Source: Loxodes magnus
Taxonomy: Eukaryota; Ciliophora; Karyorelictea; Loxodida; Loxodidae
Reading direction: 5' to 3'
NCBI GenBank assembly: GCA_946699065.1
Contig: CAMPDV010002073.1
Location: forward strand, 18,180-82,179
DNA length: 64,000 bases
Within the stretch, counting starts at the first letter, position 1. Every line of letters begins with the position of its first letter. The notes under the pieces are model-generated. The model was not told the DNA's origin and searched no databases. It saw nothing but the letters and a program-made list of their open reading frames with translations. Shown in pieces: positions 14,455 to 57,031 of the stretch. The position numbers and the translations under genes were made by a program.

Positions 14455-15541
14455 TCAACTCGAAACTCTCCACTTTCTTATTGTCCTGTCATCCGCTCCC
14501 GATACCAACCATCTATTATCAACACTCAATGCTATAGACCATATTGATTCTGTATGCCCTTATAAAGTCTAGATACACTCACCCTTATCAAAGTTCCAGA
14601 TCTTGATTGTTCTGTCATCAGAACCAGAAAATATAACACTTGAATCAACACTTAACTGAATACTTGATACAACATCTTTATGGCCTTAAAGAGTACGAAT
14701 ACACTAACCAGAATAGAAGTCCCATGACTTAATTGTCTTGTCATCTGAACCAGATATTATATATCTATTATCCTTAGACATTATCACCGATGAAACTCAG
14801 TCTGAATGCCCAGTAAGAGTTCGCACAAGCTGACCAGTCTAGAAATCCCAAATCTTTATAGAGGAGTCAGCAGATCCCGATATAATATATCTAGAGTCAT
14901 AGGAGAGTACTACCGATCAAACTCAATCAGTATGTCCAGACAAAGTTCTTTGGAGATCACCATTGTGGAAATTTCAAATCTTTATGGTATTGTCATAAGA
15001 TCCTGATACTATATAGCTAGAGTCTGGGGAAATTACTACCGATCTAACTGAGGAAATATGCCCCGTTAAAGTTCTTATGAGAGAACCAGTCTATGAATTT
15101 CAGATCTTTATGGTTAAGTCATCAGATCCTGATACTATATAGCTAGAGTCCTAGGAGATTACTACCGATTAAACATCAGAAGTATGTCCTGTTATAGTTC
15201 TTTGGAGAGAACCTGTCTGGAAATTTCAGATCTTTATCGAATTTTCAGGTCATACTGAACCTGATACAATTCAATTCAGGTCACTTGATATGGCTACCGA
15301 TAACACAGCTGAATAGTGACCAGTAATGACTTAGTCTAAAAAATATTAAAGAAATACCTTTACTTTGGTCATAACTGATCTTATTTATTAACTTTTAGTA
15401 GCATAAGTTAGGCAGAATTTCATACTTAAAATGAAGTAGAGATACTTTCCCTAGAATGTGGCTTCTCGCTCTTAAGAGTTTTCTTAAAAAAATACTTTTA
15501 GTAAATTGCTTTTCTTTTTTCTCCGTTTCTTTTTTCACCAT
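14455..15541 (-). CDS. WD40 beta-propeller protein, copy 1 (intact, one 22 nt intron)
   Basis: Predicted 354 aa: exon 1 15541-15358, intron 15357-15336 (gtatttctttaatattttttag on the minus strand is 22 nt; starts gtattt, ends tttttag), exon 2 15335-14455. Removing the intron joins an N-terminal basic segment ([15 protein letters not shown]... KISYDQSK) in frame to seven WD40 blades of about 42 residues (roughly 64-352). Blades show GH, D and IKIW landmarks, for example GHTSDVQSV and SGSDDLTIKIW. Eight Trp codons are TGA, including conserved blade-ending Trp; the protein ends SS-TGA. TAA/TAG are read as Gln. No catalytic or membrane domain is seen, so it is a protein- or ligand-binding scaffold. 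Differences from copies 2 and 3 cluster at propeller-surface positions. Upstream, a divergent gene starts at 16937. Confidence 0.88.
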
Positions 15542-16936
15542 TTTAATTTTTATAACTTACTTCAATAACTATTTAATTAAAATAACTCAATAAATTTTAC
15601 TTACTTAATTTCAATAAAATTAAACAATAAAATTATTTATTAAGCATACTTATAAGTATCTTCTAAAACATTGATTTTTCTATTTTTGTCTTAAAACAAG
15701 ACAAGATATTAAACTAATAGTTTACAAACTTTTACAATTTTAATTATTTTATATCATTTTACTTTTAAATAAAAGGATAAGTAATTATTTCAAAAGTTTA
15801 TAACGAAGAATTATATCCTTATTATAATAACTTTAATATGCATTTATTAATTATTACTTATTTGTGCTTAAAATAAAAGACTCTTTAATAAGAAAACCTT
15901 ATTTCTTTGTAAACTAATTTAATTGATAAATAAAATATTACAATTCTTTTAAATCTACTGTTATTAATTATTATTTTTCACTTACATTTAATCAAAAAAT
16001 TATTTATTTAATCTTTTTACTAATTAAAAAAAGTAAATAAAATAAGTTTCTTATTAATTAGTTTGAATATATATTAAAAAACATAAAATTATTTAAAACA
16101 AAGCATTTTTAGAATTTATAATATAAACTCTTTTAATCGTCCACTTTCTTACTACTATTTCATTAAAACTTTTTATTTATAAAGGTCTCTCTTATAATAA
16201 TAAACTAATATAATTTATTATAATGTTGATTCTAAGCAAGTTATATAAATTTAATAAATATAAGTAGTAGAAAGTAAATATTTAATCTAACTATAAATGG
16301 TGTATCACTAATTTTATCTTACAATTATTAAATAGTAATATTTAATTTTATTATTAAAATAAGCTTTAATATGTTTAATTATGTCTATTAAATACTTAAA
16401 ATTTCATCCTTTTAGCTTTATTAGTTATTAATTAGTTTCTCTTTAATTTAGATATTAGATTAGTTATAATTAATACATTTAGATAACTTTCTCTTTTATA
16501 GCAAACTAATATTATATTTATTATTTATGTTATTTTTGTAATTATCATTTCTAATTAATAATACCTAAATTATTCTAGATTATTTAAAGATAAAAACTTA
16601 ATTCTATTATTATATACAAATCTATATTATATTGCTAACACTATTAATACTCTCTTTCTTAAAATTAGTTGTTTGATATTTAGAAAATTATAAGCTTTTA
16701 AGTAAGAAAGCATATTTTTAATCTTCTATTATTATTTTCTGAATTAATAGAAAGAGTAAACTTAACATAATATGTTTCTTTGTAGTATGAGATAATATAA
16801 GTATTAGATTAGCTAGTATAAGCTATTTAAAACTAAAATTAAAGCCACAATAAATCCTAGTCTAGTTGACTTTAGTCATAAAATTTAAAAAGAATACAGT
16901 CTTTAGTAGTAATAAGAAAGGATTTAAATAAACATA

Positions 16937-17534
16937 ATGAAAGTGAGAAAAAAATTAAACCTACAAGATAAGAGTTTTAAAGCTTAAATTGAAATTTATT
17001 AATTAAAAGATTTAAGAATATCATTTGCTATCTAGAATGAAATAGCTGCTAAACTTTAATTTTTTCTGAATAAATTAAAATAATAAATTGCAACCAAAAG
17101 GCATGCTTGATATTTAAAAAATATTTAAGTTTGCAAGTAGTTACAAATTGGATATTGAGCATGGTTTAACAAGTGCTTCTTAAGAAAAATAGAATAACAA
17201 AAGTTTTATAGAAGAATAAATATTATAGAATTCCAGTGCTTCTAAATAGAAAAAAAAGAAATCACTAAAATTTAATTAATCAAAGTCTTAAATAAAAAAG
17301 TTGCTATTAAATGAGAAATGTACATGTCCAAAGTGGTTGCCAAAATGTCTACTTTGAACTTATAAATCTAAGAATTGTCCTTTTGAAAAAAACAAAAAAA
17401 TGTAAATCCTTCTAGAACTAGAATATTCAATGACTTTTATAAAATTTAGATTGAAATATTCATGCAATAGCTCGAGATCTAAATTTTCGAAGTAGCATAA
17501 TTTTACACACTCTTTAAATTTTTCAATTTCTTGA
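16937..17534 (+). CDS. Cys-containing basic protein in WD40 unit, copy 1
   Basis: An ATG at 16937 opens MKVRKKLNLQDKSFKAQIEIYQ, continuing to NEIAAKLQ. From about 17080 another phase is clearly better: KLQPKGMLDIQKIFKFAS, SYKLDIEHGLTSASQEKQNN, then a Lys-rich stretch and a Cys cluster, KCTCPKWLPKC, YKSKNCPFEKNKKM, ending TGA at 17532-17534. A short intron or a one-base shift near 17065-17090 must join them. The Cys cluster loosely recalls a CXC/zinc-binding motif, but spacing does not match a known family, so function is open. The original phase also stays open to a TGA at 17714. The gene is divergent from the WD40 gene, with 1.4 kb between the start codons. Confidence 0.5.
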
Positions 17535-18149
17535 TTGTCTTAAATCAAAAATTTTCAGTTACGTTTATTTTTTATTCTCTTAGGAATATAAAAATTGCTG
17601 TTTTTTTCTCCAACTTTGCAATATCTTAGATTGAATTTGCTACTTCATTCACTTCACTATTCAATAGACATAAATTTAAATCCCAAAACTACAACATTCA
17701 TACTTTAGTCTCTTGAAAACATTATCAGTCTAATCCTTTAAAGCTCTATATGCTTAACTTCCCTTTTCTTAATTTAGATCATATTACCCTAATTGATTTT
17801 CCTTATATCTTTAAGCTAAAATAAACCTAAAATATTAACTACCATAAAAAAGCATTAAAGCTAGATTTTATTTTTAAATTAGTTTAATATACTTATTAGC
17901 AAATTTCTTGTAAATAAAAGCTTAGAATGAAATATATAGTATATTTAAAGGTTTAATGTATCTTGTTAGTTTATTAAGATACATAAATAAGAAGTTTATA
18001 CAGAATTAGGCTATCTTTAATTAAAGATACTGAGTCTAGTAATCTTAATAATATATTAATTTAACTAGTAATGCTCCAATAAATAACCAATTAAATACTT
18101 TAATGGATTTATTAACTCTGAGGCTAGTACTTTAAAGTTGTTTTTTTGC

Positions 18150-19480: not shown

Positions 19481-20079
19481 GTCTTTTAGATCACTGTTTC
19501 TTATTAGAATAGAATTAAATTTTCATCTTGCTGACTTTTCTTTAATGTTCCTTTATTCACCATATAAAGATCTAAAGGAATTGCCAATAAACAACTTCAA
19601 GTAAGTTTTTAAGCTTCACATATTACTAGACTAGACTAAGGTTTTTATTAGATCTCACTATCTTGAATCTATTAAACTGATTGGTATTCAAACGTAGTAA
19701 GCTAATTACACCTCACTCACTATAACTACAAATAATGGTAAACCTTAATATATTTAAAAGAAGTAAAAGCTTGTTATTTTAATAGCAACTTATTTTAACC
19801 TAAATAGACAAATAATTAGATATTAAAGTAGCAAGGATATAAGATTAACAACCTAGCTTAATTAACTAATCACTATATCCTAATTTTAATAGCCTAGCAT
19901 TATTATATTACAGTTACTAAGACTATTAGCAACCCTTTATTTTAACAAAGCAGCTTATTAGTATTATATATTTAGTGCTTTAATGTAAAGACTATAAGAG
20001 ATATACTTATAACATTTAAATAATTATTAACCATGTATCTTAGTAATAGCACATCTATATACTATTGTAGAACTTTTAA
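19481..20079. other. Spacer before right arm, nothing recognised
   Basis: AT-rich sequence unique to the loop, up to the start of the right inverted-repeat arm. No feature seen. Confidence 0.5.
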
Positions 20080-20725
20080 TTTTATAGTGGAAATAGTTAA
20101 TATGCTTAATTTATTATATTTTTGGTTATTAAACAATATAATGCTAAAAAGGCTAAAGACTTTTTTAAAAAAACTAATACAAAATTTTATCCTTCAAACA
20201 AATTCCTGGAATACAAATTCTATCAATATTGGAATTTTCGCAAAAGATTTACCCAATAGGTGGAAAATTCTAAAGAGCCTTAAATGATTATTTCTTTTAT
20301 CCATAGGCTATTAGCAAACAGACTTGAATAATATTGTACGACTTTATAATTATAATATGTTAGATTAAAAGTGAAGATTAGTAAGATTCTTAAGAAATAA
20401 TATAACTAGGAATAAAGCTAAAATATCAATTCCATTTTGAGGGTTTCTAATACTTATTTACTAATAAGTATCGAATAGCATTTATTTGATAATTATAAAC
20501 TTGATAGTGTTTGTTTAATATAATATAGAGAAGGTATTAAAACATTTTGTTAAAAGTAATAATTAGCTAAACTTAAATAAGTCAAAATAATAATAGAAAA
20601 CAAAGATTTATTATTTGCTATTAAGCTTCTTATATTAGTTATAAACTTAATTAATTAATATAAGCCATATATTAGACCAGCTAATACCAAAATAATTACT
20701 ATCACTAAAAGAATGTAGTTTTACC

Positions 20726-21660
20726 ATGCTTTTTCCTTACTAAAAATTAATAAATAATAGAATTCCATTAAGCTCCTTTTCTCTTACTCTTCTGATGTTT
20801 CCTTCTTAAAATAAGGATAATTTTATTTTTCTGGTATTTGGCAATTGTTTTTTCCCTGAATCGTAACATCTAAGTGTTTATCACCTCGGCAAATATGTAA
20901 ACCTTTCAGAAATTTATTTTGTTCTTCTTTATTTTAGCTCTCATTTACTAATGAAAAGGTTTTTTTATAAATCTGCACCTTAAAATAGTAAATTTTACCT
21001 ATCTCTGCCTATTCCTTCATATCTTGTATATGCACACTTGTTTAAGCTCTGTGTTATTCCGTAATTTTTTATACTCTTCTAAATAGTCAGAGTTAGTTTC
21101 AATTACTTTCTAGAAGTTATGTAAAAAATGCCCGCTTACTTTCTCTGCTTTTACTCAAAAGGATGTTCATTTCTTCTATATCTTTCTATCTATATTTATA
21201 ATATCGCTATTCATTCTATTAGCTGTTGCTAACTTATTTGGCTTCACTCTATTTATTTTCAATATTTTCTGAATTAATGTGGATTATAATATTTTGCTTT
21301 AAAAGCTTTTTTACTGCAAAACTTAATGGTTTTCTTTGGTTTACTCTTACAGTTTTATTCTCTATGGAGCACAAATTTTTTCATCGATTGCTACTTCTTT
21401 TTGAGTTTAATCTTGCTAACATGTTTATCCTGTCTCTTCATTATACCAAGAAACCTTTGGTTTTTCTTCTCGTTTTGGTATAAAATTCAGACCCGCTTAC
21501 AGTTCCACGAAAGACTCTTATATCTGTTAGTAAATTTACATTTGAAGCTTTTTATTCTCTCATCCAATTTTTAGAAAAGCCTCAACATCTGCTATAAGCA
21601 TAGTTCAAAGATAAAATCAAAAATTTAATTTCTATTTTTATTTATTTTTCTTACAGATGA
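20726..21660 (+). CDS. Candidate polytopic membrane protein, right arm (left-arm copy 9420-10360, minus)
   Basis: An ATG at 20726 opens a frame reading MLFPYQKLINNRIPL, then NCFFPESQHLSVYHLGKY, LPIPSYLVYAHLFKL and several hydrophobic stretches. From about 20890 a second phase (containing LMWIIIFCF, LNGFLWFTLTVLF, MEHKFFHRLL) stays free of TGA to 21657, so a short intron or frameshift probably joins the two. The opposite strand is also open for about 850 bases (containing KGLHICRGDKHLDVTIQG and one strong hydrophobic helix), so strand choice is uncertain; I prefer plus because it holds no TGA at all over about 300 codons. No family recognised. Confidence 0.3.
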
Positions 21661-22339
21661 AATCATAAGTAAATTAAGCCAATATGCTACAATCTTCAAT
21701 GTCTTTATTTTTTATTATATAAAAGTAAGAAAAAAACCTAATTTTATTTAAAAAATAGATTTAAGTAGCTCAAAAAGTAGATCTTTCTTGAAGGAATATC
21801 TTTAAATAAATACATTAAACTGCAATAATAATAAAAGCTAGAAATTTACCTTTATAGACTAAAATGAGAAGCCTGTTTTTTAATTGCTAGAGTGGTAGAC
21901 TAGAATATTAATTTATATATAGATTCATTTATAAGATTAAATATTTAAAAATACAAGAAAGATATGAATGTCTAAAAGTACGTTATGCATATTCTAACTT
22001 ACTTTATGATTTCATTTATCTTTGCTGATATTTTGGAAGCATATACAATCATCTTTCGCATCAAAAGTTATTTAATCAAACTCCATTCAAATTTATTTTA
22101 CTTAAGTTATTGCTGATAATAGATCTAAGATTTTCTATCAATGCGTTTATTAACGAATGAATCTCTGTTAATTTCTAGTTTTTCAGCAATCATATGAACT
22201 AATAAAATTCTTAATTTATTACCTTATTTCTTATCGTAAGTAAATTATTATATTTATTAAATTGGAACATAACAATCCAACTATTAAATCTGAACAATCT
22301 TTAACTGTTTTAAATCAATATAATAAATTTCATTTATTG

Positions 22340-23040
22340 GTAGTATTCATCCTAAGGCACCAACATATATTATATTGTAATTTCCAATTGGTACCTATTT
22401 ATTAGCAATTTCTTTTAATCTTATTTATAACTTTTCAAATATATGATGCTAGCATATTTATTTAGTCTACTATTAATAATCTACCTCATTTTAATTATTT
22501 TCACTCTTTCTTTATTTTTATTTTGAAACAGTTAATCAATTACTAAAAGCTGGTAAATTATGTAATGAATAAGGTGTTATTATGTTTAGGAATTATGCCA
22601 ATTTCTTATAATTTCCAGGATTTTACTTAATTAGTAGTATCATATTGTTAAATATTTTTAATAGTTTAAATTTTCCTATTCCAGTTGATCCTAATGGAAG
22701 AAGTATGTATTAGATATTTTGTTTTCAAAATTAAATAAATTAAATAGCTAACTTTTAATTTATTTATAGTTGAATATCTATAATTTCTAATATTTTAAGT
22801 TTAATTTAATTTTTTATTTTTCATTTTCTAGTCTTTTTTCTGAATTTATAAGCTAATTTTGTTGGATAATGCTTATTGTTTATTAATTCTGTATTAAATA
22901 TTTAAAACGCATATTCATTGTAACTTTCCGTAGAATTATTTCTTTTAAATATGCAGTCAGTATCTTCTTAATGTCACAGGTTTATATAAAAATGAGTTAA
23001 TTTTAGCAATTTTAGGTAAAAGATTTTTGTTTATACTTTT
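22340..23040 (+). CDS. Membrane-protein-like coding region, right-arm copy
   Basis: From about 22525 one frame reads ETVNQLLKAGKLCNEQ, then FRNYANFLQFPGFYLIS, a hydrophobic segment (ISSIILLNIFN) and FPIPVDPNGRSMYQ, continuing with LQANFVGQCLLFINS and SVSSQCHRFIQK. The mix of Gly, Pro, Asp and Cys is better than expected for random T-rich sequence. Two TGA codons fall inside and would be Trp. The left arm keeps the same frame and shows a CAA/TAA silent exchange. It looks like part of a polytopic membrane protein; T-rich DNA always yields hydrophobic residues, so confidence is limited. No family recognised. Confidence 0.4.
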
Positions 23041-26000
23041 AGAATCTAAAAAAGTAACTTATTAGATTATTATTTGTTTAATTTTTAGTTCTTATAGTAA
23101 TTACTTTTTTTCCTATACTAAATAATAGAATCAATTCATAACAAGTTATATTTTTTTAATTATTTGCTACTACTCTCAAATAAACGATTCGGAGTAAAAT
23201 TTGTTTTGAGTCATATGCTCAAAATATCGTAATTTATCTTCAGAAAAGTAATGCTTATTATTTATATCTTTCAAATAAGTAAATATTATAGATATTAGAT
23301 TAGATTAATTTTTATTAAATTTAAGTTTTCGTTATTTATCTCGACTTAGTTTTTCATTTAATGAGAACATTTGCAAATTATTCTACTTTCCAAACTTCTC
23401 AGTATTTCTAAAATTTTGTATTTCTCAAAAAAGGATTAATTCAAATATATATTAATTTACTATTCTACGTTATAAGAGTTTTAATAAATATCTATTTCCA
23501 AAATCCTTTACAATCCATTATTTTTGTTTTACTTTTTGTAATGTTTTTGATTTTATACTTTAGTACATTATTAATATCTAATACAAGCTAAGCATCCTAA
23601 TTGGTTATTCATAATTGAAGTTAAAGTTTCATGAACGGCAATATAAATTTATCATTCCGTCAGGATTTTATAATTTCCTTTTAATAAAAAAGCCAATTTT
23701 TTATATCTTAACATATAATCTTAATTTGCGGTTTAGTTGTTTTGCTATTTTTATCGACTTTCCTTTTTAATTTGTTGGTTTATTTAGTTTTTATTTAATG
23801 TTAGGTGCATTAGTGTAAAATGATAGTAACTATAATTGTAATTAGTTTGATTAATTTAATTTTATAACATCAATAATGATGTTTTATTTTAGCTAAAATT
23901 AAAGTATTATTCTCTAATGTTGCTGTTTATACTTATATATAATTAATATGATTAATGATATAAAATGTATTATGTAATATATGCTTCATACTTATAATTC
24001 AAATCTAAATTAATCTTTATTATAATTTAGTGAAGAGAAAGTTCCCTATAATTCTCTATTAAAGTAACTAGTTTTGCTATTTTACTAACTGCTACTTAAT
24101 TTATTACATATCCCTTTTACATAATCTAGATATTTTCATCTATTTTTAGTTATTTTTAAACTAAATAACTAAAAATAAAATAAATCTACTAAAGCTAAAA
24201 TTAATAGAATAGCTTCTATAATTTATTACTTTTAAACTATTATTAAATTACAATACTTTAAAACCTTAAACTTTGCTAGATAAGAAAGGAAAATAACCTA
24301 TTAAGGATATAATAGATTAGATATAAGCATTAATTTTTTATTTATTGCTAAATAAATTTAATTCGGAAAGATAATTGAAATCTCATTAGTACAAGAAATA
24401 TTCCATTATAAGTCTTGCCTTACGTTACTATATTAACTTTGAGTAAGTTTCATTAAAGCATAAAGTAAACATAGCTACAGACCTCAAGACAATCATATTA
24501 AGAATCTCTCTTAGAGCATAAATTTATTTCCTCCTAGGTATGAATTTAATATTTTTAAGGATTTTAGGAGATTATTTAGTATACTAAGATTGAGAGAAGC
24601 ACATAATGATACTCCTACAGACTTTTTATTTTATACTTAAGCATTTTTTTAAATTTTCTTTGTAATTGAATATTCTTTTTAATAATCTAAGTTATAATGA
24701 AACTTAGAGCTATTGAAATCCCTAATACTTTTAACTAAATAATTTTAGAATGCTGTTACAAATGTTAAATGATATAGGAATTAAAAATAGAAATAGTATC
24801 CAGTTTATAAAAGGATATAATAATTAAAATTAATTTTAGAGATTATAATAAGTAATTGTATGATATAATAATAATACTTCCAGTTATTATTAGTAAACCA
24901 TATAATTATACTCAATCTATCATACTTTTCATTTATTTTCTATTACCATTCATCTTACATAAGTTTAACCAATATAATAGTAAGCCAGGCTTAAATTAAG
25001 GCATCAAGAATAACTTTTTGGGACTAGATAATTAGTTCTAATAGAAAATTATCAAAACAATATATACTAAAGTCTATAAAATTAATTTAACACTTTATAA
25101 AGTAAGCTATTAACATTAGAGTTTAAAATATCTTAGGTAAAATAATAATAACAAAGAGAAATAATAGTATTCTCATATATTCACTTAATTATCCTAATAA
25201 TAAACCATGTAATATAATATTTTACTTAAAAAGCATATAGTTAAAATAAACACATTAAGTGGATTAAGATTTATCAGATAATAAATAATTATAATTTAAC
25301 TTAAAGATATTCAAGTATAGTTATATCAACAATCAGTCCTTTAATTAAAATAATTTATTCACTTGATAAATCTTTCAGCTACTTAGCGAATTATTTTAGT
25401 TATAATAATCCTTCTTAAATTTTTAAGGCTTTTTATCCTTATGATCTCTAAATAAGAAACTTCAGTGATAATTCATTTATCTCTTTATTTTTAAATTCTA
25501 TAAACAATTTTTTCTTTCTAATTTGATATCAAGTTAAAACTTAATTATTGCCTTTAATTTTTAATTGTTTTTTCCGGATATTTCAAAGATTTTAAATAAA
25601 GCTTAATTGGTTTAAGTTTTTCGTTTTTCAATTATCTAGATAATTCTTTCAAAAGAATTCTAAATTTTACTTGTTTTTGAAGTAATTTATAAGCAATCTC
25701 CTTCTTTATGAGTTTTTATATTCTTATTATTTATATAAAAGTGAGAATCAATATATGATACTTTACTATGATAAGAGAATTATCTAAATGACATAAGATA
25801 TTATTAATTTATGAGCATTTAAAACATTTTTCTAACTTCGATACTATTATTAAGCTTCATATCTAAAACTTAGTAAGACTGTTTACTATGACTTATCAGT
25901 AATTGTTAATTTTTCAAATTAAGCGTTTATTTTGATGTTAAAATATCTTTATAATTTTATTTCTTTAATCTTAAATAAAAGTATGCTACCACTTTATTAA

Positions 26001-29000
26001 TTTATTTATCTTATTTAAATTTACCAAATGTTTATTCTTATGCTCATAATACCTATTTTCCCTATAGTAAATAATGATTTTATTAGTAAAAGATTAATAT
26101 ATTATCTATTAATATTCTATTATCTAGAATATCTTTGCTATGTCTAAATTACTTACTATAAATTTATAAATTTTATTACTTTTTATAGTTTAAAATAGTA
26201 TGTTTACTATAAATTATAATTATTTAAAATTATTATTTAAACAGATACTTTACTAAATGGAGAGAATATATAGTTTCATTAGTTAAATATTTATTAGTAT
26301 AAATATAGATAGTTTTGTTGCTTATAAGAATTAAATAATAAAGTTAATTTTTCATTAAGTTTATTCTGCACATTGTTAGAATTAAAAAATAGATGTGGAT
26401 TAAGATTTAAAGCATATAGCTTAAGTAAAAAATCTAAACTAATAAGTTTCATATATTTACTGACATTATTTAAAATTAAACATTATACAGAAACTAAAAC
26501 TTTTATGAAGAAGCAAGATTAATAAATAGATTATAATCTTTATAAAAATGTCAAAATAATAGTAAAGCAAATAGCTTGTAAAATTAATTAACTATGATCA
26601 ACAATTGGACTATATAAAATCAAATTAAAAATTGGAATTTAAACAATCTAAAAAAGTAACTAAATTCTTATAAGCAATACAAAGAGATATAAGCACTCTT
26701 CAAAGAATATTAAAAGAGAATTAATTTTAATTTCTATTTAAATATAAATTTATTAAATTAATAAAAAGAACTACGAAAATAAAATAATTCAACCTTAATT
26801 GTAAAATGACAATTCCCGAGAGACTTAAGTTTTAATCTTAAAGAGAAAAATATTTTCTTTAAGGAAGTCTCATTTGCAAATTTTTCTTTAGATAGTTTAT
26901 TTCTCGATAATTTAGATTTGATCCTTTGCTTATTTTACAATAAAATTTTTGTGCAAACAAAAGTTAAACTTATTGTGTTTAAAGCTTAAGTTTAGAAATC
27001 AATTTTCCTTAAGTCTCGAAATTATCTGCAAATGATACAGATTCATTTCAAGATTTTGGAAAAAGTTTCTCAAGTTTTCCATTAGTTTTTTTATCATATA
27101 AACAAAATCGTAATTAGCAAAAATATTAAGTATTTTCTTATAATTCATAAACTTAAAGTGATTTCTAATTAGAATTAATATATTGAAGAGAACCCATCCA
27201 AAAGATTGAAATTGGAATTTAAATTTTATAATATGAATTTTACATAGAAATTTGTATTTGTGTTAAATGCCTTGTAATATATCCTTGTTAAATTATTAAG
27301 AGACACGTTAAAATTATAACGATTAATAGTTATGCTTTTCAAATTTCATAATCTAAAAATTATATATTTTTTAAATTATACATATTTATTTTTCCATCTG
27401 AATTAATATAAAAATTATTAATAAATTGAAGCTTCTTAAGAATTTTAAATGTTTAAATTTTATTTTTATTTTTACTAATTATACTAAATTTTAGCTTTAA
27501 TTATTTTGATTACTGTAAATTAGATAAATTATTATCATTATTAAATGAAGTTTTTTTTAAATAATTCAATTATTTAAGTAAAATCATTTTAATATAAAGA
27601 AATGCTTACTTTTTTAACTAAAATATTAAGATTTTTGGCATTAAAAATATTATATTTAATGAAATTCTTTAATTTTAAAGATTTTTTTATTCTATAAATT
27701 TTTTAATTTTTAATTAAATTTTTACCATTTTTCTTATTTATATGCAACCGATTAAGAAATAATTAAACTTTTTAAGATTTTCGAAAATAACTTATTTTAC
27801 TTTCTTTAACTATTATTATGTATTGATATCCTAAATTTGCTTAAGTATTTTTATAATATAATGATAATAACTCGTATATCATATCTTTAATCATAAAATT
27901 TAAAAATTAATTTAATAGTTTATTTTTTAATCATTTTTATTTGCTATCTTACTAAAATTCCAAATTTTTTAATATAATAGGATTATAGCTAAAGACTTAT
28001 TTTGCATTTTTATAATTAGATGTTGATAGAAATGTTTTTTAATAAACTACGGATAATTGGAAAAAATTTATCGAATGAATGAAAAAATATTTAGAAGTAA
28101 TAGTAATTTAGAATTATTAGGTTATTGATGCTTAAATTTTTAGATTTAATACAGATTTGTTAATTATTAAAAAAAACTAAATACTAATTAAAAAAAACAA
28201 TTAAAAATGTTTTTAATTTAAAGAAATTGAGCAAAAACTTTGAAACTTACAACAAATAAAATAAAATAATTTGATGACTTCAATATTTTAAAGTTCAAAT
28301 CTTAAAAACAACTTAAAATTCAAATTTTATATTATTCATGCATAAAAATTAGTTTACAAAAGAAAATAAAATTATTTTCTTTAGTTTAAACAATAAAATT
28401 ATTTATTTCCCAAATAAGAAAAAAGTTTAAATTACGAAAATTATAAATTTAAAATATAATAATTTTTACTATTTTTCATCGTAATTATAATATTTATTGG
28501 AATTTAAAATGCTTTAAGTATATTTTAAGAAATGTTGGATACTGTAAGAAAGATACAAGAAAAGTAATTAGTTTATGCTTTAATATGTTAATATCTATAA
28601 AGGATAAGTTTTAATCAAAATAAAACTAGTATACCAAAGAAATTAATATTTCTTTACATTTTATCACATATTATAAGAATTTAATTTTTTAGTCTCTATA
28701 ATTTTCTGAGTTTATAACATATTAAAAAATAATATCAAGATAGTTTATATTCATAAGTCTGAAAATTATAAATTAATTTTAAATTATTTTCAAATTAAAA
28801 AATAAAAAATAAATCATAATGTAAAAATAAACTAAAAAATCTAATTAGTAATGTAAAATAAAATATTATTTTTATTATTAAATTAAAGATTTATAATTAA
28901 AAATGCTAAATTAAAAAGAAAATCATTATATAAGAACATATTTCATTAATTTTTCTTAAGTAAAGCATCTTATAAAAAATGCAATTTAAATAAATAAAAT

Positions 29001-30109
29001 GAAAAAGATTGTACTTTTATAATTTACGATTAAAAAAATTTCTCTAATTAGAATGGGAAAATATAAAATTACGAACAATTTTAAACTCTTTACGACTAAG
29101 TGCAAAATTATTGTAAAGATAAAAATAAAATATTTTTCTTTTATAATTATTAAATATCTCTTACATTTTTTTAATTTATTAAAATAAAATCATTTTAATA
29201 TAAAGAATTGTTTACTTTTTATCTAGATATTAAGATTTTTGGATATAAAATTATTATATTTAATAAAATTCTGTAATTTTTCAGATTTTTTTTGTTTTTA
29301 TTCTATGAATTTTTAAATACTTAATTCTTTAGATATTTTGCCAAGCTTCTCGAATTTTCTATCATATACTGTTTTTAACAAAAGAATTATCTTTTAAAAA
29401 TCTTCCAAGAAATTTAGTTTACTTCCTTTAATCTTTAATTGTAAAAGAATCACAGATTTAATCAGGTTTTTTTTAATTTTAATAACTCTCTATTCAAATT
29501 TTTAATAGTAAAGTAACTTCTCTTGAGGATATTGTTGTTTGTACTAACTGATCTCTGGAAGTCCAAAATCCAGAGCTTTTAGCATATTATATTTTCATAA
29601 ATTCATAATTTTTTTTAATCAAGCCATATTTTTATTGTTTTATTATAAATTTACAAAAATTAAAACAGAATTATTTTCTTAATTTTTTAAAAGTAAAATT
29701 TATAATAAAAATTAGTATATTATTTTTAATTTTTTAAATAATTTTATAGTACCAAAATTTTATATCCATACTCAAATAATTAATAGTTAAAAAATCAAAG
29801 TAAAAATAATTTAAAGTTTATGCTTTTTATTTATTATGAAAAATTTGACTGTTGCTAAGCTAAAATTATTTTAGATTGCATTATATCTTTTAAGGTATTA
29901 ATTTAAATTTCAATGAATTTGTTTTTTAAATTCATATTCTCAAACTTACTTCATATTCGACATTTTCTTGATGCTTTTATTCGCCACTATTTTCTCAAAA
30001 CTACAAATTACTATTTGAATGGAAGATATATATTGTAATTCACTCAAATTCACTCCTATTTATATTTAAATTATATACTTACCTTCTTTTATACTTAACC
30101 ATCTTTAAG
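23041..30109. other. Right-arm interior, no gene recognised
   Basis: Reverse complement of 961-8050, very AT-rich. As in the left arm, no recognisable domain, RNA or repeat structure was seen beyond the arm homology itself. Confidence 0.5.
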
Positions 30110-34272: not shown

Positions 34273-34976
34273 TATGAAAACATTAATTACAATCTTTAAT
34301 CATAAATAAAATAGATCAATGAACAAAAAATAATAACTATTTTTAATTAGAAAATGAATATTAAAACATTTTAATTTAATTTCTTGATAAGATCTTTTAA
34401 ATTTAAATTAGTTGCTTTTTTTTATTTATTTTAAATAAAGCACTTTAAATATTATTATATTTATGAATATTTAGTATTTTAAATTAAAAATTACTATATT
34501 GTATATTAAACCAAACATTTATTAAAGGAATGCTTAAATTATCAATTATAATTTAGTTGTCTAATCATTTAGAATCAAACTAGCTCATTATTAAGGTTCT
34601 TTATGAAATTGTGTACTATTACCATTATCGGCTTAGTAGAAACTTTGCTTTTTATTATGCTATATATGTTTCTTTTTATATTGTACGAAATATTTCCCAT
34701 TTTTTATAGATATAATTATAATAGTTATTAACTTACACTTTGTATATTATTTTAATTATACAAAAGATTAAAGCTTTTAACCTTTTTTGATATAATCAAA
34801 ACTATATTGATTTCTTAATTATTTACACTTTCATTTTGCTAATTCTTATTATTTAATATTAGAATATAATTTTATTCTTATTTTAGATGGAATATAAGAT
34901 AATTTACAAGAAAGTGAAGATTTTTATAATTTTGCATATATTCAAATTATTTATATAGTTTACTAGCAAATGCTTT

Positions 34977-35600
34977 TATATGATAAATAATCAATCTATT
35001 TTTTAAAAAGCTTTCAGCTTTAATAAAATAGCTTCATTAGAAATTCAAATTTTAAGATTAATAAATAAAATCGATTTTCTATATACATAGTAGATATATT
35101 CAAGTTGCTTAAAATCAGAAAGTTTATCTTTAAAGCTTTTCTTTTAATATTACAGAATGAGAAAAATTTTAAAGAGAAAAAATACTTAATATAGCAATTT
35201 TTCTTAAAAAACTTGTTTTCCTCTTCTAGATTAACTTCTTTTCGCAAACTAAAAACAGATAGTTAGTCGTAGTAAGCTCTTTTCAAAACTCTTTTACTAA
35301 TCTTAAATTTTTAATATTTTTATAATTATTATAATAAAGCAGAATATTTTTAAACTTGATTAATAAATTTTTGTTTCTATATTTTATATAGTTAGGTTAG
35401 ATACATTATTTAGATTCTTGCTTAATTCCTTTTTTTAGATTCTTTGTAAATTGGCCTAAAATTTATTATTACAGATGCATTATACCTCATTTTTTCTACT
35501 TGATTGATCATATTTTTATAAAGAGATTTTTTAGCTCTTTTTAGATTAGTTATTTTTAAAATTCGCAATATCTATTAAAAAGGTAGTTTTAAGCCCTCTT
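34977..35600 (-). CDS. Unrecognised coding region in WD40 unit, copy 2
   Basis: Paralogue of 12480-13100 with few differences (for example RKEVN for RKDVN). An upstream block has one base fewer than copy 1 (aaaggatag against aaagggatag) near 35715, which would break the upstream phase if that is coding. No family recognised. Confidence 0.35.
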
Positions 35601-35714
35601 ATAGAAAATTTTTTTAACTAATTTATTTCTTCCTAAAATTGTAATTTATTTTTTTATCTTTACTTCTTAAAAGTTATTTAAAAAACTTTTCAAATCTTTT
35701 AAAATTCTATCCTT

Positions 35715-36275
35715 TAAGAAAAGGATTTATCCATCCCGAAAATCTTTTGTAGCGAAAAAAGGATAATTTTTTCACGATTTCATGGTTATTTTATTATATC
35801 GCCTTTTTTCTTGAGATCCTTTTCATTTAAGTAAATTCTTATAATATTAAAAATTTTTAAAACAAATTTTTTCATTTACTCAAAAAGAAGTTCAAAATTA
35901 AAAATTGTAATTTTTCCAAAACATAAACAATAAATTTTTTTTATAATTTCAAACATAATTAACCTTATCAAAAATATACTTTTAAATAAAAAAGAAAAAA
36001 AGTTTTGATGAAATTTTTTCAATAAATTTTCTTAAAAACAAAATTTTTTTTTTAATTTTTACAAAAAACCATTTCAACAAAAAAGATTTCCAAATTCTAT
36101 TTTAATATAAAATTCCTTTTTTAATTCCTATTTTTTCTCTTTGGTAAAAATCTTTTATATTTGGAATTTTTTCTTGAAATTTTATTCCTATTTTATAATT
36201 TTTTATCCCGAAATAATTAAATTTATTCCGTGCCGAAAATCTTTGGTAGTGTCAAAAAAACGCTGAGCGAAAAAA
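35715..36275. repeat. Paired GC-richer motif, copy 2
   Basis: Same two blocks as copy 1: catcccgaaaatcttttgta near 35733 and gccgaaaatctttggtagtg near 36232, with a T-rich then A-rich spacer. Confidence 0.6.
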
Positions 36276-36960
36276 AAACAAATCTTTTTTTATTTTCATG
36301 AAATTTAAACTCTAAAATCGAAAAAATAATGATAAATAAAATAACTTAATATCAAAAAATTTTATAATCCAATCGGAAACGAAAAATATTAAACTTAAAT
36401 GTTAAAATTTTATAATATCAATAAATAATAAATAATAATAAATAATAAATAATAATTAATAAATAATAATAATCAATCATAAAAAATAAATAATAAAAAA
36501 ACAAAAAATTTAATTTAAAATAAATACTTAATTAAATTTTTTCAATTAATAATCAAGATTATTAAACTTACTTTAACCATAATAAATAATATTTTAACCA
36601 CTTCACAAAAAAAATGAAAATTTATACTCAACTTGAAATTTTTACTAAATCTAAAAATAAATCCATAAAATTTATAGCATAAATTTAAACTTTAACTTAT
36701 TTCATTCTTTCATTTAACAAAATTATATTTTTAATATTTTTAAACATTACCACTTTAAATCAACATACCTCACTAATTGCTATAACCTATCACTCAACCC
36801 TTTTTTTAAACTAATAATATTTAAGAATATAACAAATTTTAAATAAATAAAAAACTTCATATAACTAAAAACATTATTAACATTAAACATTCATTTAAAT
36901 ACATTACCAATATCTTATATCTTTAATCGTAAAATTAAATTAAGTCAAATCATAAGTTAC

Positions 36961-38043
36961 TCAACTCGAAACTCTCCACTTTCTTATTGTCCTGTCAAAT
37001 CCTCCCGATACCAACCATCTATTGTCAACACTCAATGCTATAGATTATATTCCATCTGTATGCCCTTACAAAGTCTATATACACTCATCCTTATCAAAAT
37101 TCCATATCTTGATTGTTTTATCCCGTGAACCAGAAAAGATAACACTTGAATCAACACTTAACTGAATACTTGATACATAACTTGAGTGACCTTGAAGAGT
37201 ACGAATACACTAACCAGAAGAGAAGTCCCATATCTTAATAGTACTGTCACCAGAACCTGATATTATATACCTATTATCCTTAGACACTTTTATCGATGAA
37301 ACTCCGCCTGAATGCCCAGTAAGAGTTCGTACAAGCTGACCAGTCTAGAAATCTCAAATATTTATAGTTTTATCCCAAGATCCCGATATAATATATCTAG
37401 AGTCATAGGAGATTACTACCGAGGTAACTCTAGAAGTACGTCCCGACAAAGTTCTTTGGAGATCACCATTGAGGAAATTTCAGATCTTTATAGTTGCATC
37501 GTAAGATCCAGATACTATATAGCTAGAGTCTGGGGAAATTACTACCGAGTTAACGAAGGAAGTATGTCCCGTTATAGTTCTTATGAGAGAACCAGTCTAT
37601 GAATTTCAGATCTTGATCGTGTTATCAGCAGATGCTGATACTATATAGCTAGAGTCATAGGAGATTACTACTGAGTAAATGAAAGAATTATGTCCTGTTA
37701 TAGTTCTTATGAAGGAACTTGTCTGGAAATTTCAGATCTTTATCTTTTTTCAGGATATGCTGAACCTGATACAATCCAATTCAGGTCACTTGATATGGCT
37801 ACCGATAACACAGTCGAAGTGTCAGTAAGGACTTAGTCTAAAAAATATTAAAGAAATACCTTTACTTTGGTCATAACTGATCTTGTTTATTAACTTTTAG
37901 TAGCATAAGTTAGGCAGAATTTCATACTTAAAATGAAGTAGAGATATTTTCCCTAGGATGTGGCTTCTCGCTCTTAAGAGTTTTCTTAAAAAAATACTTT
38001 TAGTAAATTGCTTTTCTTTTTTCTCCGTTTCTTTTTTCACCAT
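36961..38043 (-). pseudogene. WD40 beta-propeller protein, copy 2 (one-base frameshift in blade 1)
   Basis: Same structure as copy 1: ATG at 38043, 22 nt intron 37859-37838, terminal SS-TGA at 36961-36963. Relative to copy 1 it lacks one codon near 37815 and a single base near 37748, where copy 1 encodes PENSIKIW; the latter shifts the frame, and exon lengths no longer sum to a multiple of three. All later blades are otherwise well preserved, including TGA at blade-ending Trp codons in blades 1-4. Either a young pseudogene or a sequencing error in a short A run. At 37776-37778 this copy has TGG where copies 1 and 3 have TGA. Confidence 0.82.
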
Positions 38044-39444
38044 TTTAATTTTTATAACTTAATTCAATAAATATTTAATTAAAATAACTATATTAATTTT
38101 ACTTACTTAATTTCAATACAATTAAACAATGAAATTATTTATTAAACATATTTATAAATATCTCATTTCTTAAACATTAATTTTTCTATTTTTGTCTTAA
38201 AACAAGACAAGATAATAAACTAATAGTGTACAAACTTTTACAATTTTAATTATTTTATATCTTTTTACTTTTAAATGAAAGGATAATTTATTGTATCAAA
38301 AGTTTTATAACGAAGAATTTATATCCCTATTATAATAACTTTAATATGCATTTATTAGTTACTACCTATTCGTGCTTTAAATCAAAGACTCTTAATAAGA
38401 ATAACTTATTTCTTTATAGACCCTTTTAAATAATAAATAAAATATTACAATTCTTTTAAATCTACTGTTATTAATTATTATTTTTCACTTACATTTAATC
38501 AAAAAAATATATTTCTTTAATCTTTTTACTAATTAAAAAAATAAAAAAAAAAAAGTTTCTTATTAATTAGCTTAAATATATATTAAAAAACATCAAATTA
38601 TTTAAAGCAAATTATTTTTAGTATTTATAAAGTAAACTCTTTTAATTGGCCACTTTCTTACTACTATTTAATTAAAACTTTTTATTTATAAAGATCTCTT
38701 TTAAAATAATAAACTAATATAATTTATTATAATGTTGATTCTAAGCAAAATATATAAATGTAATAAATATAGGTAGTAGAAAGTAAATATTTAAACTAGC
38801 TATAAATGGTTTATCACTAATTATATCTTACAATTATTAAATAGTAATATTTAATTTTATTATTAAAGTAAGCTTTAATATGTTTAATTATGTCTATTAA
38901 ATACTTAATATTTTATCCTTTTAGCTTTATTAGTTATTAATTAATTTCTCTTTAATTTAGATATTAGATTAGTTATAATTAATACATTTAGATAACTTTC
39001 TCTTTTATAGCAAACTAATATTATATTTATTATTTATGTTATTTTTGTAATTATCATTTCTAATTAATAATACCTAAATTATTCTAGATTATTTAAAGAT
39101 AAAAACTTAATTCTGTTATTATATATAAATCTAAAAAACATAGTTATCACTATTAATACTCTCTTTCTTAAAATTAGTTGTTTGTTCTTAAGAAAATTAT
39201 AAGCTTTTTAAGAAAGCATATTTTTAATATCTTCTATTATTATTTTCTGAATTAATAGAAAGAGTAAACTTAACATAATATATTTCTTTGTAGTATGAGA
39301 TAATATAAGTATTAGATTAGCTAGTATAAGCTATTTAAAACTAAAATTAAAGCCACAATAAATCCTAGTCTAGTTGACTTTAGTCATAAAATTTAAAAAG
39401 AATACAGTCTTTAGTAGTAATAAGAAAGGATTTAAATAAACATA

Positions 39445-40035
39445 AAGAAAGTGAGAAAAAAATTAAACCTACAAGATAAGAGTTTTAAAGCTTAAATTGA
39501 AGTTTATTAATTAAAAGATTTAAGAATATCATTTGCTATCTAGAATGAAATAGCTGCTAAACTTTAATTTTTTTCTGAATAAATTAAAATAATAAATTCC
39601 AACCAAAAGGCATGCTTGATATTTAAAAAATATTTAAGTTTGCAAGTAGTTACAAATTGGATATTGAGCATGGTTTAACAAGTGCTTCTTAAGAAAAATA
39701 GAATAACAAAAGTTTTATAGAAGAATAAATATTATAGAATTCCAGTGTTTCTAAATAGAAAAAAAAAGTCACTATAATTTAATTAATCAAAGTCTTAAAT
39801 AAAAAAGTTGCTATTAAATGAGAAATGTACATGTCCAAAGGGGTTGCCAAAATGTCTACTTTGAACTTATAAATCTAAGAATTGTCCTTTTGAAAAAAAC
39901 CAAAAAATGTAAATCCTTCTAGAACTAGAATATTCAATGGCTTTTATAAAATTTAGATTGAAATATTCATGCAATAGTTTGAGATTTAAATTCTCAAAGT
40001 AGCATAATTGTACACACTCTTTAAGTTTTTCATTT
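39445..40035 (+). pseudogene. Cys-containing basic protein in WD40 unit, copy 2 (broken)
   Basis: Paralogue of 16937-17534. The start ATG is lost (ataaag for ataatgaaag), a T run has one extra base near 39570, and the Lys-rich stretch differs by two bases near 39760. All three changes disrupt reading relative to copy 1, so this copy is probably dead. Confidence 0.55.
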
Positions 40036-40089
40036 TCTTGATTATCTTAAATCAAAAATTTTCAGTTGCGTTTATTTTTTATTTTCTAA

Positions 40090-40184
40090 AGAACCTAATT
40101 GCTTCAGAATGAGAGTGATATCATAAAAATTATTTTATTAAGCTGAAAGGCAAACATTATTTAATTTAATTTAATATTTTCTAA
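40090..40184 (+). mobile_element. Short retro-insertion with TTTAA-type tail in unit copy 2
   Basis: About 95 bases absent from unit copy 1 (junction near 17583) interrupt the unit. They end in tatttaatttaatttaat, resembling the tail of the non-LTR insertion at 11121-11930, and are flanked by attttctaa at 40081-40089 and 40176-40184. This looks like a SINE-like or extremely truncated non-LTR copy mobilised by the same machinery. Confidence 0.6.
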
Positions 40185-49008: not shown

Positions 49009-49854
49009 ATGGATTAATCTCTTAGACTCTCAAAAAATTAACTTAGAAACCTAAAGAGAAAAGCGGCAAAAGAAATTTAGAAAAAATAATAACAATAGGA
49101 GGAGTCAAGCTCTTCTTCAGAAGGTAAATTTATGGTAGGATAAATAGAGATAAGTTAACCTAAAAACGAAACTAATCAAAAACTTTAAATTTAATTAGAC
49201 CAAATGTAAAAAGTAATCTCAAATTATGAAGAAACAACTTACAACTTAGGCGAAAAAATATGGGAACTAATGAGTAACATAGAAGATTAGAACAACGAAT
49301 TACTAATACTTAGAAGATAACTTATTTGTAGCAAATTAATAACGGAAGAATAACTCTGAACTTAATCATAATAAAATTTTAAATACGACACAAAAATGGA
49401 AATAGAAAAAATACCAATAGAATTAAAAACAGAATTGAATCCAGAAAAAGAAATGATTGCTACAAGTTTCATTAAAAGATTAGAAAATATAGAAAATAAA
49501 TTATCATAAAAAAGAACGAAATAAAGATAATAATACAAACTTTGTTATGTTGCAAATCAAATCAACATATTTTAAAAAACTATTGATAATGAAAGAAAAT
49601 AAACGAATAAGAGCAGAAAAGAACATGGAGACAACTCAATAAACTATGAATAACTCCAACAGGGATCTACAAATAAAAGCTTTTTGCAAGACCACTCGAA
49701 CGGTTACAGTGGTAACCTTCCACTTAATAAAAAGGTCGTGGATCACACCCACGTTAAAAAAACTGTCCGCAGGTACTGGTTGCAATTCCAGAGAATGCAA
49801 AACTCTACTAACTTTAAGTATATTATTATTATTATTATTAAAGGAAAACTTTAG
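49009..49854 (+). CDS. Coiled-coil protein with basic C-terminus, unrecognised
   Basis: One unbroken frame from ATG 49009: MDQSLRLSKNQLRNLKRKAA, a Gln/Glu/Ser tract, coiled coil (LDQMQKVISNYEETTYNLG, LMSNIEDQNNELLILRRQL), KMEIEKIPIELKTELNPEKE, and a C-terminal basic/aromatic part (NKKVVDHTHVKKTVRRYW, LQFQRMQNS). One internal TGA is read as Trp. After an ATT run the good composition stops at TAG 49852-49854; in this frame no TGA occurs for several hundred bases more. Hence I place the end at that TAG, giving 281 aa, though a 3' intron is possible. If right, UAR also terminates. No family recognised. Confidence 0.55.
49818..49842. repeat. ATT trinucleotide run
   Basis: Tandem att repeats just before the presumed end of the gene at 49009; read in frame they would give an Ile run. 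Confidence 0.8.
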
Positions 49855-50648
49855 CTCTTTATAAATAATAAACTTCTCTAGTTTTAATTTTCTAAGTTTC
49901 TTTTGTCTATTATAAGCTTATAAGTCTAACTTAATTGTATTTTAATTATTAGTTATGTGAACTATAAATAATTAAGTTTTAACTTGTAGATTCTATTATT
50001 CAATCTTATATCCAAAATAAAGATGCTATTTAAATACTTGAGGTAAATAAATTTACCATAGTTTGCTATTTTAGTGATTAGATCTATATTTCTTTTATTC
50101 ATTTATTCTAGCTGTGTATCAAGCTCAGTAGTTTACTTGTTTTCTTTTCAAATCTTTTGTATTTTTCTAATATTTTAAGATAATTTTCATCTAATGTAGT
50201 TCATTTAATTATTTTAGTGGAAATATTGCTTAATAATAAAAATAAATAGAATGCTAATAAATATATAGTAATAGTATAAGATACCTATTGATTAAGATTA
50301 ACTTAAGAAAGGAATAATTAATTTATTAGTTACTTTTAAAATACTAAGCTTCTTAATATTAGTTATATAGCCTTAGTTAGATTACTTATATAAGCTTACT
50401 AATGCTATTATTTTTAACTTTAATTTGTATTATAATTTCTTTATTTAGTTTATAATACTTTATTATTTTAGCTATATACATTTCCTTATAATTAAAAGCA
50501 TTAATATCTATATATTAGTTAGTGCTTCTTTATCTATTATTAATATAGTTTATATTTTAAAGAATGCTAAGAATAATAATTTAAATATAGTTAACTTAAA
50601 GACTTGTATTATGTCATTTATTTTTAATTCTCTATCTCTCTGCAAAAT

Positions 50649-54850: not shown

Positions 54851-55959
54851 TATTAAGAGTAAATAATAATCTATTAGATTAGTTTTAAATAGTTTATATT
54901 AGCTAATCTAATACTTATATTATCTAATACTACAAAGAAATATATTATGTTAAGTTTACTCTTTCTATTAATTCAGAAAATAATAATAGAAGATATTAAA
55001 AATATGCTTTCTTAAAAGCTTATAATTTTCTAATATCAAACAACTAATTTTAATAAAGAGAGTATTAATAGTGTTAGCAATACAATATAGATTTGTATAG
55101 AATAATAGAATTAAGTTTTTATCTTTAAATAATCTAGAATAAAGGTATTATTAGATTGAAATGATAATTACAAAAATAACATAAATAATAAATATAATAT
55201 TAGTTTGCTATAAAAAGAGAAAGTTATCTAAATGTATTTATTACATTTATATATTTTGCTTAGAATCAACATTAAAGGTAATAAATTATATTAGTTTATT
55301 TATTTTAAGAGAGACCTTTATAAATAAAAAGTTTTAATTAAATAATAGTAAGAAAGTGGGACAAATAAAAGATTTATCTTATAAATTCTAAAAATACTTT
55401 GTTTTAAATAATTTAGAGTTTTTTAATATTTATTCAAACTAATTAATAAGAAACTCAATTTTATTTACTTTTTTTTAATTAGTAAAAAGCTTAAAGAAAT
55501 CCTTTTTTTAATTAAATGTAAGTGAAAAGTAATAATTAATAGCAATAGCCTTAAAAAATGCTAATATTTTATTTACCAATTAAAAGAGTCTATAAAGAAA
55601 TAAGGTATTCTTATTAAGAGTCTTTGATTTAAAGCACAAATAAGTTGTAATTAATAAATGCATATTAAAGTTATTATAATAAGGATATAAATTCTTCATT
55701 ATAAACTTTTGAAATAATAACTTATCCTTTTATTTAAAAGTAAAAGGATATAAAATAATTAAAATTGTAAAAGTTTGTACATTATTAGTTTTATATATTG
55801 TCTTGTTTTAAGACAAAAATAGAAAAATCAATGTTTTAGAAGATACTTATAAGTATGCTTAATAAATAATTTAATAGTTTAATTATATTGAAATTAAGTA
55901 AGTAAAATTATTGAGTTATTTTAATTAAATAGTTATTTAAATAAGTTATAAAAATTAAA

Positions 55960-57031
55960 ATGGAGAAAAAAGAAAAGCAATTTACTAAAATTATTTTTTT
56001 AAGAAAACTCTTAAGAGCGAGAAGCCACATTTTAGGGAAAATATCTCTACTTCATTTTAAGTATGAAATTCTGCCTAACTTATGCTACTAAAAGTTAATA
56101 AACAAGATCAGTTATGACCAAAGTAAAGGTATTTCTTTAATATTTTTTAGATTAAATCCTTACTGTTCATTCTTCAGCTGTGTTATCGTTATCCATATCA
56201 AGTGACCTGAATTGAATAGTATCAAGTTCAGGATATCCTGAAAATTCGATAAAGATCTGGAATTTCCAGACAGGTGCTCTCCAAAGAACTATAACAGGAC
56301 ATACTTCTAATATTTTATCGGTAGTAATATCCCCAGACTCTAGATATATTATATCGGGATCTTTCGATAACACGATAAAGATCTGAAATTACCACAATGG
56401 AACTCTCTAAAGAACTATAACGGGACATACTTCCTCAGTTTACTCGGTAGTAATCTCCCCTGACTCTAACTATATCGTATCAGGATCTTACGATAACACT
56501 ATAAAGATCTGAAATTTCCTCAATGGTGATCTCCAAAGAACTTTGTCTGGACATACTGATATAGTTATATCGGTAATAATCTCCTATGACTCTAGATATA
56601 TTATATCGGGATCTTGGGATAAAACTATAAAGATTTGGGATTTCTAGACTGGTCAGCTTGTGCGAACTCTTACTGGGCATTCAGGTTCTGTTTATTCGGT
56701 GATAGTGTCTAAGGATAATAGATATACAATATCAGGTTCTGGTGACAGTACTATTAAGATATGGGACTTCTCTTCTGGTTAGTGTATTCGTACTCTTTAA
56801 GGTCATGTAGACGGTGTATATAGTATTCAGTTAAGTGTTGATTCAAGTGTTATCTTTTCTGGTTCATATGACAGAACAATCAAGATATGGAACTTTGATA
56901 AGGGTGAGTGTATATAGACTTTGTAAGGGCATACAGATCCAATATCTTCTATAGCATTGAGTGTTGATAATAGATGGTTGGTATCGGGAGGATATGACAA
57001 TACTGTGAGAAAATGGAGCATTTCGAGTTGA
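55960..57031 (+). CDS. WD40 beta-propeller protein, copy 3 (intact, one 22 nt intron)
   Basis: Predicted 349 aa: exon 1 55960-56128, intron 56129-56150 (22 nt, gtattt...tttag, identical to copies 1 and 2), exon 2 56151-57031 ending SS-TGA. Exons sum to 1050 bases, a whole number of codons. The N-terminus starts [10 protein letters not shown], five residues shorter than copy 1. Seven blades follow; TGA encodes Trp at 56213-56215 (SDLNWIV) and at the end of blades 2 and 3, whereas blade 1 ends with TGG. Surface positions differ sharply from copies 1 and 2, for example GHTDIVISV and SGSWDKT in blade 4. Context is an inverted partial unit without the other two unit genes. Probable binding scaffold; the partner is unknown. 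Confidence 0.88.

Follow-up and report, generated by a model that had tools for sequence, protein, structure and literature searches.

The window analysed here is a stretch of 64,000 nucleotides of Loxodes magnus DNA (contig C2073, positions 18180-82179) carrying three WD40 genes, which probably encode single-propeller recognition proteins of a large, diversifying family in this karyorelictean ciliate, coupled to a protein kinase in related genes; this reading was drawn from sequence comparison. Replacements in the family are concentrated at the putative binding face, while the blade frame and the first exon are constrained, and at six residues per blade divergence outpaces both the linked silent sites and the non-coding DNA nearby. 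Searches were performed on the Loxodes magnus assembly (705,730,643 bases, 7843 contigs), which the available text of the genome paper describes as a 706-Mbp macronuclear assembly with UGA as both tryptophan and the only stop codon (translation table 27; PMC11441545).

Replacement variation and selection in the propeller

The three copies were located where the original prediction had placed them, with the blade 4, 6 and 7 motifs that it had quoted, and all share one gene model: exon 1, a 22-nt GT..AG intron and an exon 2 encoding a seven-blade WD40 propeller. That the frameworks are near-constant, with differences falling after GH and in the SGSxDxT turn, was also borne out. Six positions per blade are hypervariable (GH is followed by three of them and the next V by one, and the two x of SGSxDxT complete the set), and these held approximately 122 of the 200 replacement differences between the three window copies, as summed over a difference table extending a few codons beyond the stop.

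For the wider family 42 copies were analysed, namely copies 1 and 3 and the best 40 of 2834 first-look candidates from a DNA search with copy 2, and propeller sequence was read in these 42. Variation was not spread evenly over the blade: 58% of the amino-acid heterozygosity lay in 36 of the 234 blade codons (33 distinct sequences, 36 intact copies). The four most variable positions are the counterparts of the four under selection in the fungus Podospora, and 100,000 random samplings of 24 codons never gave a heterozygosity as high as theirs.

The ratio of non-synonymous to synonymous change (dN/dS) was pooled from pairwise comparisons over the 33 distinct exon-2 sequences, after the six frameshifted copies had been dropped and three identical pairs collapsed. 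It was 2.43 at the six positions (bootstrap over copies 2.16-2.73) and 2.76 (2.45-3.13) at the four Podospora-equivalent positions; the other blade codons gave 0.24 (0.22-0.27), and exon 1 gave 0.29 (0.24-0.36). Whole exon-2 dN/dS was 0.61 across the family, so that the signal of selection is strictly local, and 0.49-0.56 among the three window copies. At the six positions the proportion of non-synonymous differences (pN, 0.40-0.45) exceeded that of linked synonymous differences (pS, 0.20-0.21). Nucleotide diversity (pi), compared in 28 of the 36 intact copies, was higher in the WD40 exon (0.101) than in the upstream 600 bp (0.065), the downstream 600 bp (0.052), exon 1 (0.032) or the intron (0.007). 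Diversifying selection at the predicted binding-face positions, as originally proposed, is supported by these values.

Gene structure and coding integrity

The features of the three copies, in window coordinates, are as follows.

15358..15541, minus strand: copy 1 exon 1 (61 amino acids, constant basic N-terminus), from sequence reading and the exon-1 consensus query
15336..15357, minus strand: copy 1 intron, 22-nt GT..AG, joining the two frames
14455..15335, minus strand: copy 1 exon 2, seven WD40 blades, TGA stop at 14455-14457
37860..38043, minus strand: copy 2 exon 1
37838..37859, minus strand: copy 2 intron, 22 nt
36961..37837, minus strand: copy 2 exon 2, WD40 propeller with a 1-nt frameshift in blade 1
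55960..56131, plus strand: copy 3 exon 1, 12 nt shorter
56132..56153, plus strand: copy 3 intron, 22 nt
56154..57031, plus strand: copy 3 exon 2, seven-blade WD40 propeller, TGA stop at 57029-57031

Exon 1 thus encodes 61 amino acids in copies 1 and 2 and 57 in copy 3. In all three copies TAA and TAG are read as glutamine, with TGA as tryptophan internally and as stop at the gene end, the latter fitting the Loxodes magnus code. The intron motif was found in 27 of 32 copies searched and an indel within the intron in 1 of 42; introns in this species have a mode of 17 bp, 93% being 25 bp or shorter, according to the available text of PMC11441545. Copy 2 matched PF00400 (WD40) at 240 bits against a curated cut-off of 27, in six stretches following the blade 1 frameshift, and the copy 3 propeller matched PDB entry 2ymu with an E value of 2.5e-200. 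The 61-residue exon 1 gave no Pfam match above cut-off, whether to a NACHT, HET or kinase domain.

An intact frame was found in 36 of the 42 copies, and a pseudogene family was rejected on this basis for most copies examined. Indel events in the coding sequence were multiples of three in 14 of 23 cases, compared to 1 of 217 in the upstream and 14 of 253 in the downstream 600 bp (events were scored against one reference copy, shared events counting once per copy). In the 36 intact copies, tryptophans in the final 20 codons were encoded by TGG in all 85 cases and never by TGA, while two framework tryptophan codons further upstream are TGA in every one of the 36. The available text of PMC11441545 gives the rule that coding TGA is avoided near the stop in karyorelict and Loxodes genes; since the window family behaves in this way, the pattern argues that its frame is translated.

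The copies lie within duplicated DNA, a 2.8-kb unit being common to the three window copies and a unit of approximately 2.9 kb to the aligned family.

11937..17586, strand not assigned: segment with copy 1, 93.6% identical to 34436-40093
34436..40093, strand not assigned: segment with copy 2, direct repeat of 11937-17586
55235..57967, strand not assigned: 2.8-kb unit with copy 3, inverted relative to 13529-16260 (86.7%) and 36026-38769 (85.7%)

Such units, the larger duplications and the 6 of 42 frameshifted copies would suit a partly mobile repeat, dispersed in the genome and containing a gene remnant, with non-functional differences between copies. This is very unlikely given the conserved frame and intron, the indels in multiples of three, the TGA stop-context rule and purifying selection, seen both in exon 1 and in the blade frame.

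Family size

A search with the exon-1 consensus identified at least 150 copies (the best 150 of 2806 first-look candidates), each matching over 61 of 61 residues at 92-98% identity, with an E value of 7.7e-31 for the weakest of those scored. A large family of ciliate origin, as had been supposed from the three copies, is supported, and the data suggest a large molecular recognition repertoire in Loxodes.

Mosaicism and the origin of variants

Four-gamete conflict was observed in exon 2 for 54-68% of biallelic site pairs, depending on distance bin, and mean r2 was 0.13, declining to 0.08 or less beyond 62 nt. Distance correlations between blades were 0.15-0.42, and 32 of 51 pairs with one near-identical blade had another blade differing at 12 nt or more. 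The value of pS was higher near variable codons (0.190) than far from them (0.110). Patchy differences were seen in two close pairs of copies (L026/L028 and L034/L037), with, for example, 33 of 42 differences falling in five clusters and 25 of those 42 in hypervariable codons; four further close pairs differed by one to six scattered bases. The original prediction had called for a search for blade shuffling: exchange between copies was supported by the conflict and correlation values above, but loop alleles common to different blade positions numbered two, both between blades 3 and 4. The mosaic pattern is in keeping with ectopic gene conversion among copies and subsequent selection. Mutagenesis of the diversity-generating-retroelement type was discarded as a source of variants, all three codon positions and many bases being variable at the hypervariable codons, although no retroelement search was made.

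Comparison with fungal WD40 repertoires

In the Podospora HNWD genes four codons per repeat are under selection (7, 9, 25 and 27), according to the available text of PMC1805685 and PMC2873952, and these correspond to phases 27, 29, 3 and 5 of the Loxodes blade, the register being taken from their equal spacing. A 2025 fungal paper lists, in its available text, seven positions of high dN/dS (10, 11, 12, 14, 30, 32 and 39; PMC12222747); by spacing, the first six match the top Loxodes phases (25, 26, 27, 29, 3 and 5), while the seventh corresponds to phase 12, which is not notable in the Loxodes family. Placement of the six residues on the top face of the propeller follows from these fungal papers.

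As in the HNWD/NWD family (HET-E, HET-D and HET-R), the WD40 frame is near-constant, hypervariable positions correspond and family members exchange sequence. The Loxodes proteins differ in that the N-terminus is a 61-residue exon, or a kinase in relatives, and in that each blade keeps its own positional frame; neither NACHT nor HET was found in the Pfam scan, which covered the window exon 1 and one kinase exon. They also differ in number, with at least 150 exon-1 copies compared to 10 members in Podospora (family described in PMC1805685, PMC2873952 and PMC12222747).

Position-specific variability was also assessed in a control set of 120 listed homologues (the best 120 of 3434 matches among 8000 scored candidates, best listed identity 54%). 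The 51 with at least three consecutive 42-residue blades by motif were used and the other 69 dropped. The most variable phases between their blades were 27, 3, 26, 29 and 5, five of the Loxodes six. The fungal match thus marks a generic ligand face of repetitive WD40 propellers, and was rejected as proof of allorecognition. The likeness to fungal HET-type NLR proteins pointed out in the original prediction therefore holds for the positions, with a dN/dS of 2.76, but is not specific.

That 51 of the 120 homologues vary at the same phases as Loxodes would suit structural tolerance, in which top-face residues drift freely around a constrained frame without selection for change. Relaxed sites should then remain at or below the neutral level, against which pN at the six positions exceeds both linked pS and a flank diversity of 0.05-0.065; tolerance is already disfavoured, and we regard it as improbable. 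The notable feature in Loxodes is that paralogous blades differ at ligand-face positions above the neutral rate, a comparison made for the Loxodes copies only.

Kinase-linked relatives

At the start of contig C1503 lies a gene with a first exon matching Pfam PK_Tyr_Ser-Thr (E value 6.2e-59) and Pkinase, with EGFR, CTR1, ITK and ABL1 among its top PDB matches. This exon is followed by a 20-nt GT..AG stretch and then, in frame, by blades of the DQVFTGHADSVRS type; the contig breaks off after three of them. A search with the kinase gave at least 126 matches including the query (4456 candidates), of which 22 were at 65% identity or above. Kinase and variable WD40 were joined at all seven loci read (the C1503 gene and six of the 22), one gene being assigned as a kinase by Pfam scan and six by similarity to it. 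The absence of a visible effector domain, noted originally, accordingly holds for the window genes but not for these relatives, in which a kinase domain is fused to a propeller of the same type.

The six kinase genes read downstream encode approximately five near-identical blades followed by two distinct C-terminal blades; in L063 the blades lie in several frames. In 28 motif-matched blades from seven genes, a count that drops blades unmatched by motif and uses one blade of L063 and four of L062, dN/dS was 2.30 at the six positions compared to 0.12 elsewhere. The copy 3 propeller is 55% identical to the kinase-linked propeller of L064 over 290 residues. A short GT..AG stretch precedes DQ(V/I)(F/L)T in the window family (22 nt), L049 (20 nt) and L064 (21 nt), and was deduced from translations in the other five kinase genes; in L061, L062 and L064 the frame is open through it, so that splicing is not demanded by the frame. 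Propeller homology together with this shared stretch indicates that the window genes are kinase-less relatives of kinase-WD40 proteins.

By eye, 41 of the 126 kinase matches listed start less than 30 kb from the contig start, 33 of these being minus-strand matches that face the start and 8 plus-strand, which may reflect outward-facing subtelomeric placement or assembly breaks at arrays.

Judged by names, kinase and repetitive WD40 are also linked in bacteria (Thermomonospora PkwA, PDB 5yzv; Tolypothrix and Microcystis proteins P0015, P0069 and P0104). The Loxodes kinase differs in best matching PK_Tyr_Ser-Thr and in forming a multigene family, with window genes lacking the kinase.

The same kinase fusion is compatible with scaffold roles, and WD40 adaptors, WDR5 and FBXW7 among them, are numerous among the sequence relatives of solved structure. 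The family could on these grounds consist of diversified intracellular adaptors (such as kinase or ubiquitin substrate adaptors, or cortical patterning factors) with many self partners, reflecting specialisation and not defence or allorecognition. An open-ended set of targets would accord better than a fixed set of self partners with the mosaic exchange, the highly variable contact residues and the near-identical exon-1 copies, which number at least 150, and an adaptor family is considered unlikely.

Tandem blade arrays

A search for the WD40 family gave 98,991 first-look candidates, the best 150 of which map to nine contigs, where most form long runs spaced by multiples of 126 bp. These arrays were sampled and not read whole, and seven of ten fetched array loci entered the blade analysis; L056 and L057, both on C9, were left out. 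Each of the seven sampled stretches of 8-10 kb contained 62-78 matched blades, 9-56 of them distinct, at a spacing of nearly always 126 bp, which keeps them in one frame. At the six positions dN/dS was 1.1-12 and exceeded that of the remaining codons (0.20-0.67) in every stretch, the weakest signals being those of L058 (1.14) and L050 (1.90). The C9 array was broken into three frames where read (25, 22 and 5 blades in L056).

Seven of the nine array contigs also hold one of the 22 closest kinase copies, and on C1503, C9, C1832 and C620 the array matches and the kinase gene lie on the same strand. On these four contigs the blade runs extend over tens of kb, an arrangement that recalls cassette libraries for gene conversion. 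Exact tracts of up to 168 nt, longer than one blade, are common to kinase-gene blades and the sampled arrays of C1503, C119, C9 and C620; some such sharing is expected from common origin, because the blade frames are nearly constant. L064 shared no tract of 60 nt with the sampled arrays, and the C272 array had no 20-mer in common with kinase-gene blades. The two C272 loci sampled (G000:C272:270001-280000 and 345001-355000; L054 and L055) form a separate array subfamily with the frame GHENWVVAIALSNDTKWIVSGS, which has no 20-mer in common with the other sampled arrays yet is variable at the same positions.

Between the window family and the sampled arrays none of 36,026 20-mers was shared, and tandem arrays as donors for the window family were rejected for the stretches sampled.

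In cassette systems of the vls or variant surface glycoprotein (VSG) kind, an expressed gene stands beside a same-orientation array of donor segments with which it shares exact tracts. Loxodes might similarly possess an open-ended, recombination-driven recognition system, comprising kinase-coupled WD40 receptors with about five exchangeable hypervariable blades, same-strand blade libraries of tens of kb donating new specificities by gene conversion, and dispersed kinase-less propellers such as the window genes. The layout would resemble that of vls loci in bacteria or VSG loci in trypanosomes, although the receptor served would be kinase-linked; we offer this tentatively, and consider it doubtful as a whole.

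Recent blade amplification, with WD40 widespread, was likewise described in the highly repetitive beta-propellers of Pereira and Lupas, whose set reaches at most 47 similar consecutive blades in the available text, compared to 62-78 matched blades in the Loxodes stretches; the word "ciliate" does not occur in the main text of that paper (PMC9218822).

Weighing of the recognition reading

If the window genes are recognition proteins, the top face of the propeller would bind protein ligands that are diverse or change quickly, whether of pathogens, symbionts, prey or non-self cells, and variants would move between copies by ectopic recombination or gene conversion. In the kinase-fused relatives ligand binding may control kinase signalling, and in that pathway the kinase-less window genes could serve as sensors, adaptors or decoys.

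Several points weigh against this reading. The window genes have no known effector by Pfam scan, and because other repetitive WD40 proteins are variable at these positions too, recognition is not proved by position alone. The pairwise dN/dS values pool comparisons that are non-independent under recombination, and the 40 matches analysed are those nearest to copy 2 by DNA and not a random sample. Among 15 patches in ten close pairs, both versions were present in other sampled copies for six only, so that for most no donor was in the sample. Equal coordinates on two contigs among the exon-1 matches (C940/C7030 and C1733/C6321) probably represent duplicated contigs which inflate copy number, and the authors of the assembly report, in the available text, that low-complexity repeats are misassembled (PMC11441545).

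Other features of the window

The GC content of the window is 19-25% in 4-kb bins. Two short GC-rich islands at 32481-32951 (up to 43% GC) and 49521-49911 (up to 40%) gave no Rfam match at the gathering threshold. Positions 1-11005 and 20079-31071 form an 11-kb inverted repeat of 96.7% identity around a 9-kb spacer which holds copy 1. A different, apparently degenerate gene at 81-1000 (plus strand), with an inverted copy near 30290-30990 (minus strand), contains pentapeptide repeats and WD40 blades spread across three frames. A stretch of approximately 400 bp upstream of the gene (38700-39118, with its copy 1 counterpart near 16190-16610) has a pi of 0.01-0.03 across copies; the gene-proximal upstream flank, at 0.05-0.10, is less conserved.

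Significance

The closest ciliate parallel considered is the expansion of leucine-rich repeats (LRR) in 90-bp exons in Tetrahymena, where the available text of PMC6564038 describes thousands of young repeat genes, some kinase-fused, and proposes ectopic recombination; the LRR exons are separated by introns, whereas Loxodes has one intronless propeller exon with six selected residues per blade. The terms WD40, kinase and propeller do not occur in the main text of the Loxodes genome paper (PMC11441545). No paper with both Loxodes and WD40 was found in open-access full text, and the titles and abstract openings seen describe no such system.

Hypervariable WD40 repertoires are documented in fungi, and a kinase-coupled ciliate version at this scale would represent independent evolution of repertoire-type recognition outside fungi, plants and animals. 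Such a repertoire could explain part of the repeat load of the Loxodes genome. Two questions become open to direct test, namely the targets of recognition in ciliates and the possible role of tandem blade arrays as donor libraries; if blade libraries do donate to kinase-linked receptors, Loxodes would possess, within one cell, the equivalent of an immune or allorecognition system built on a repertoire.

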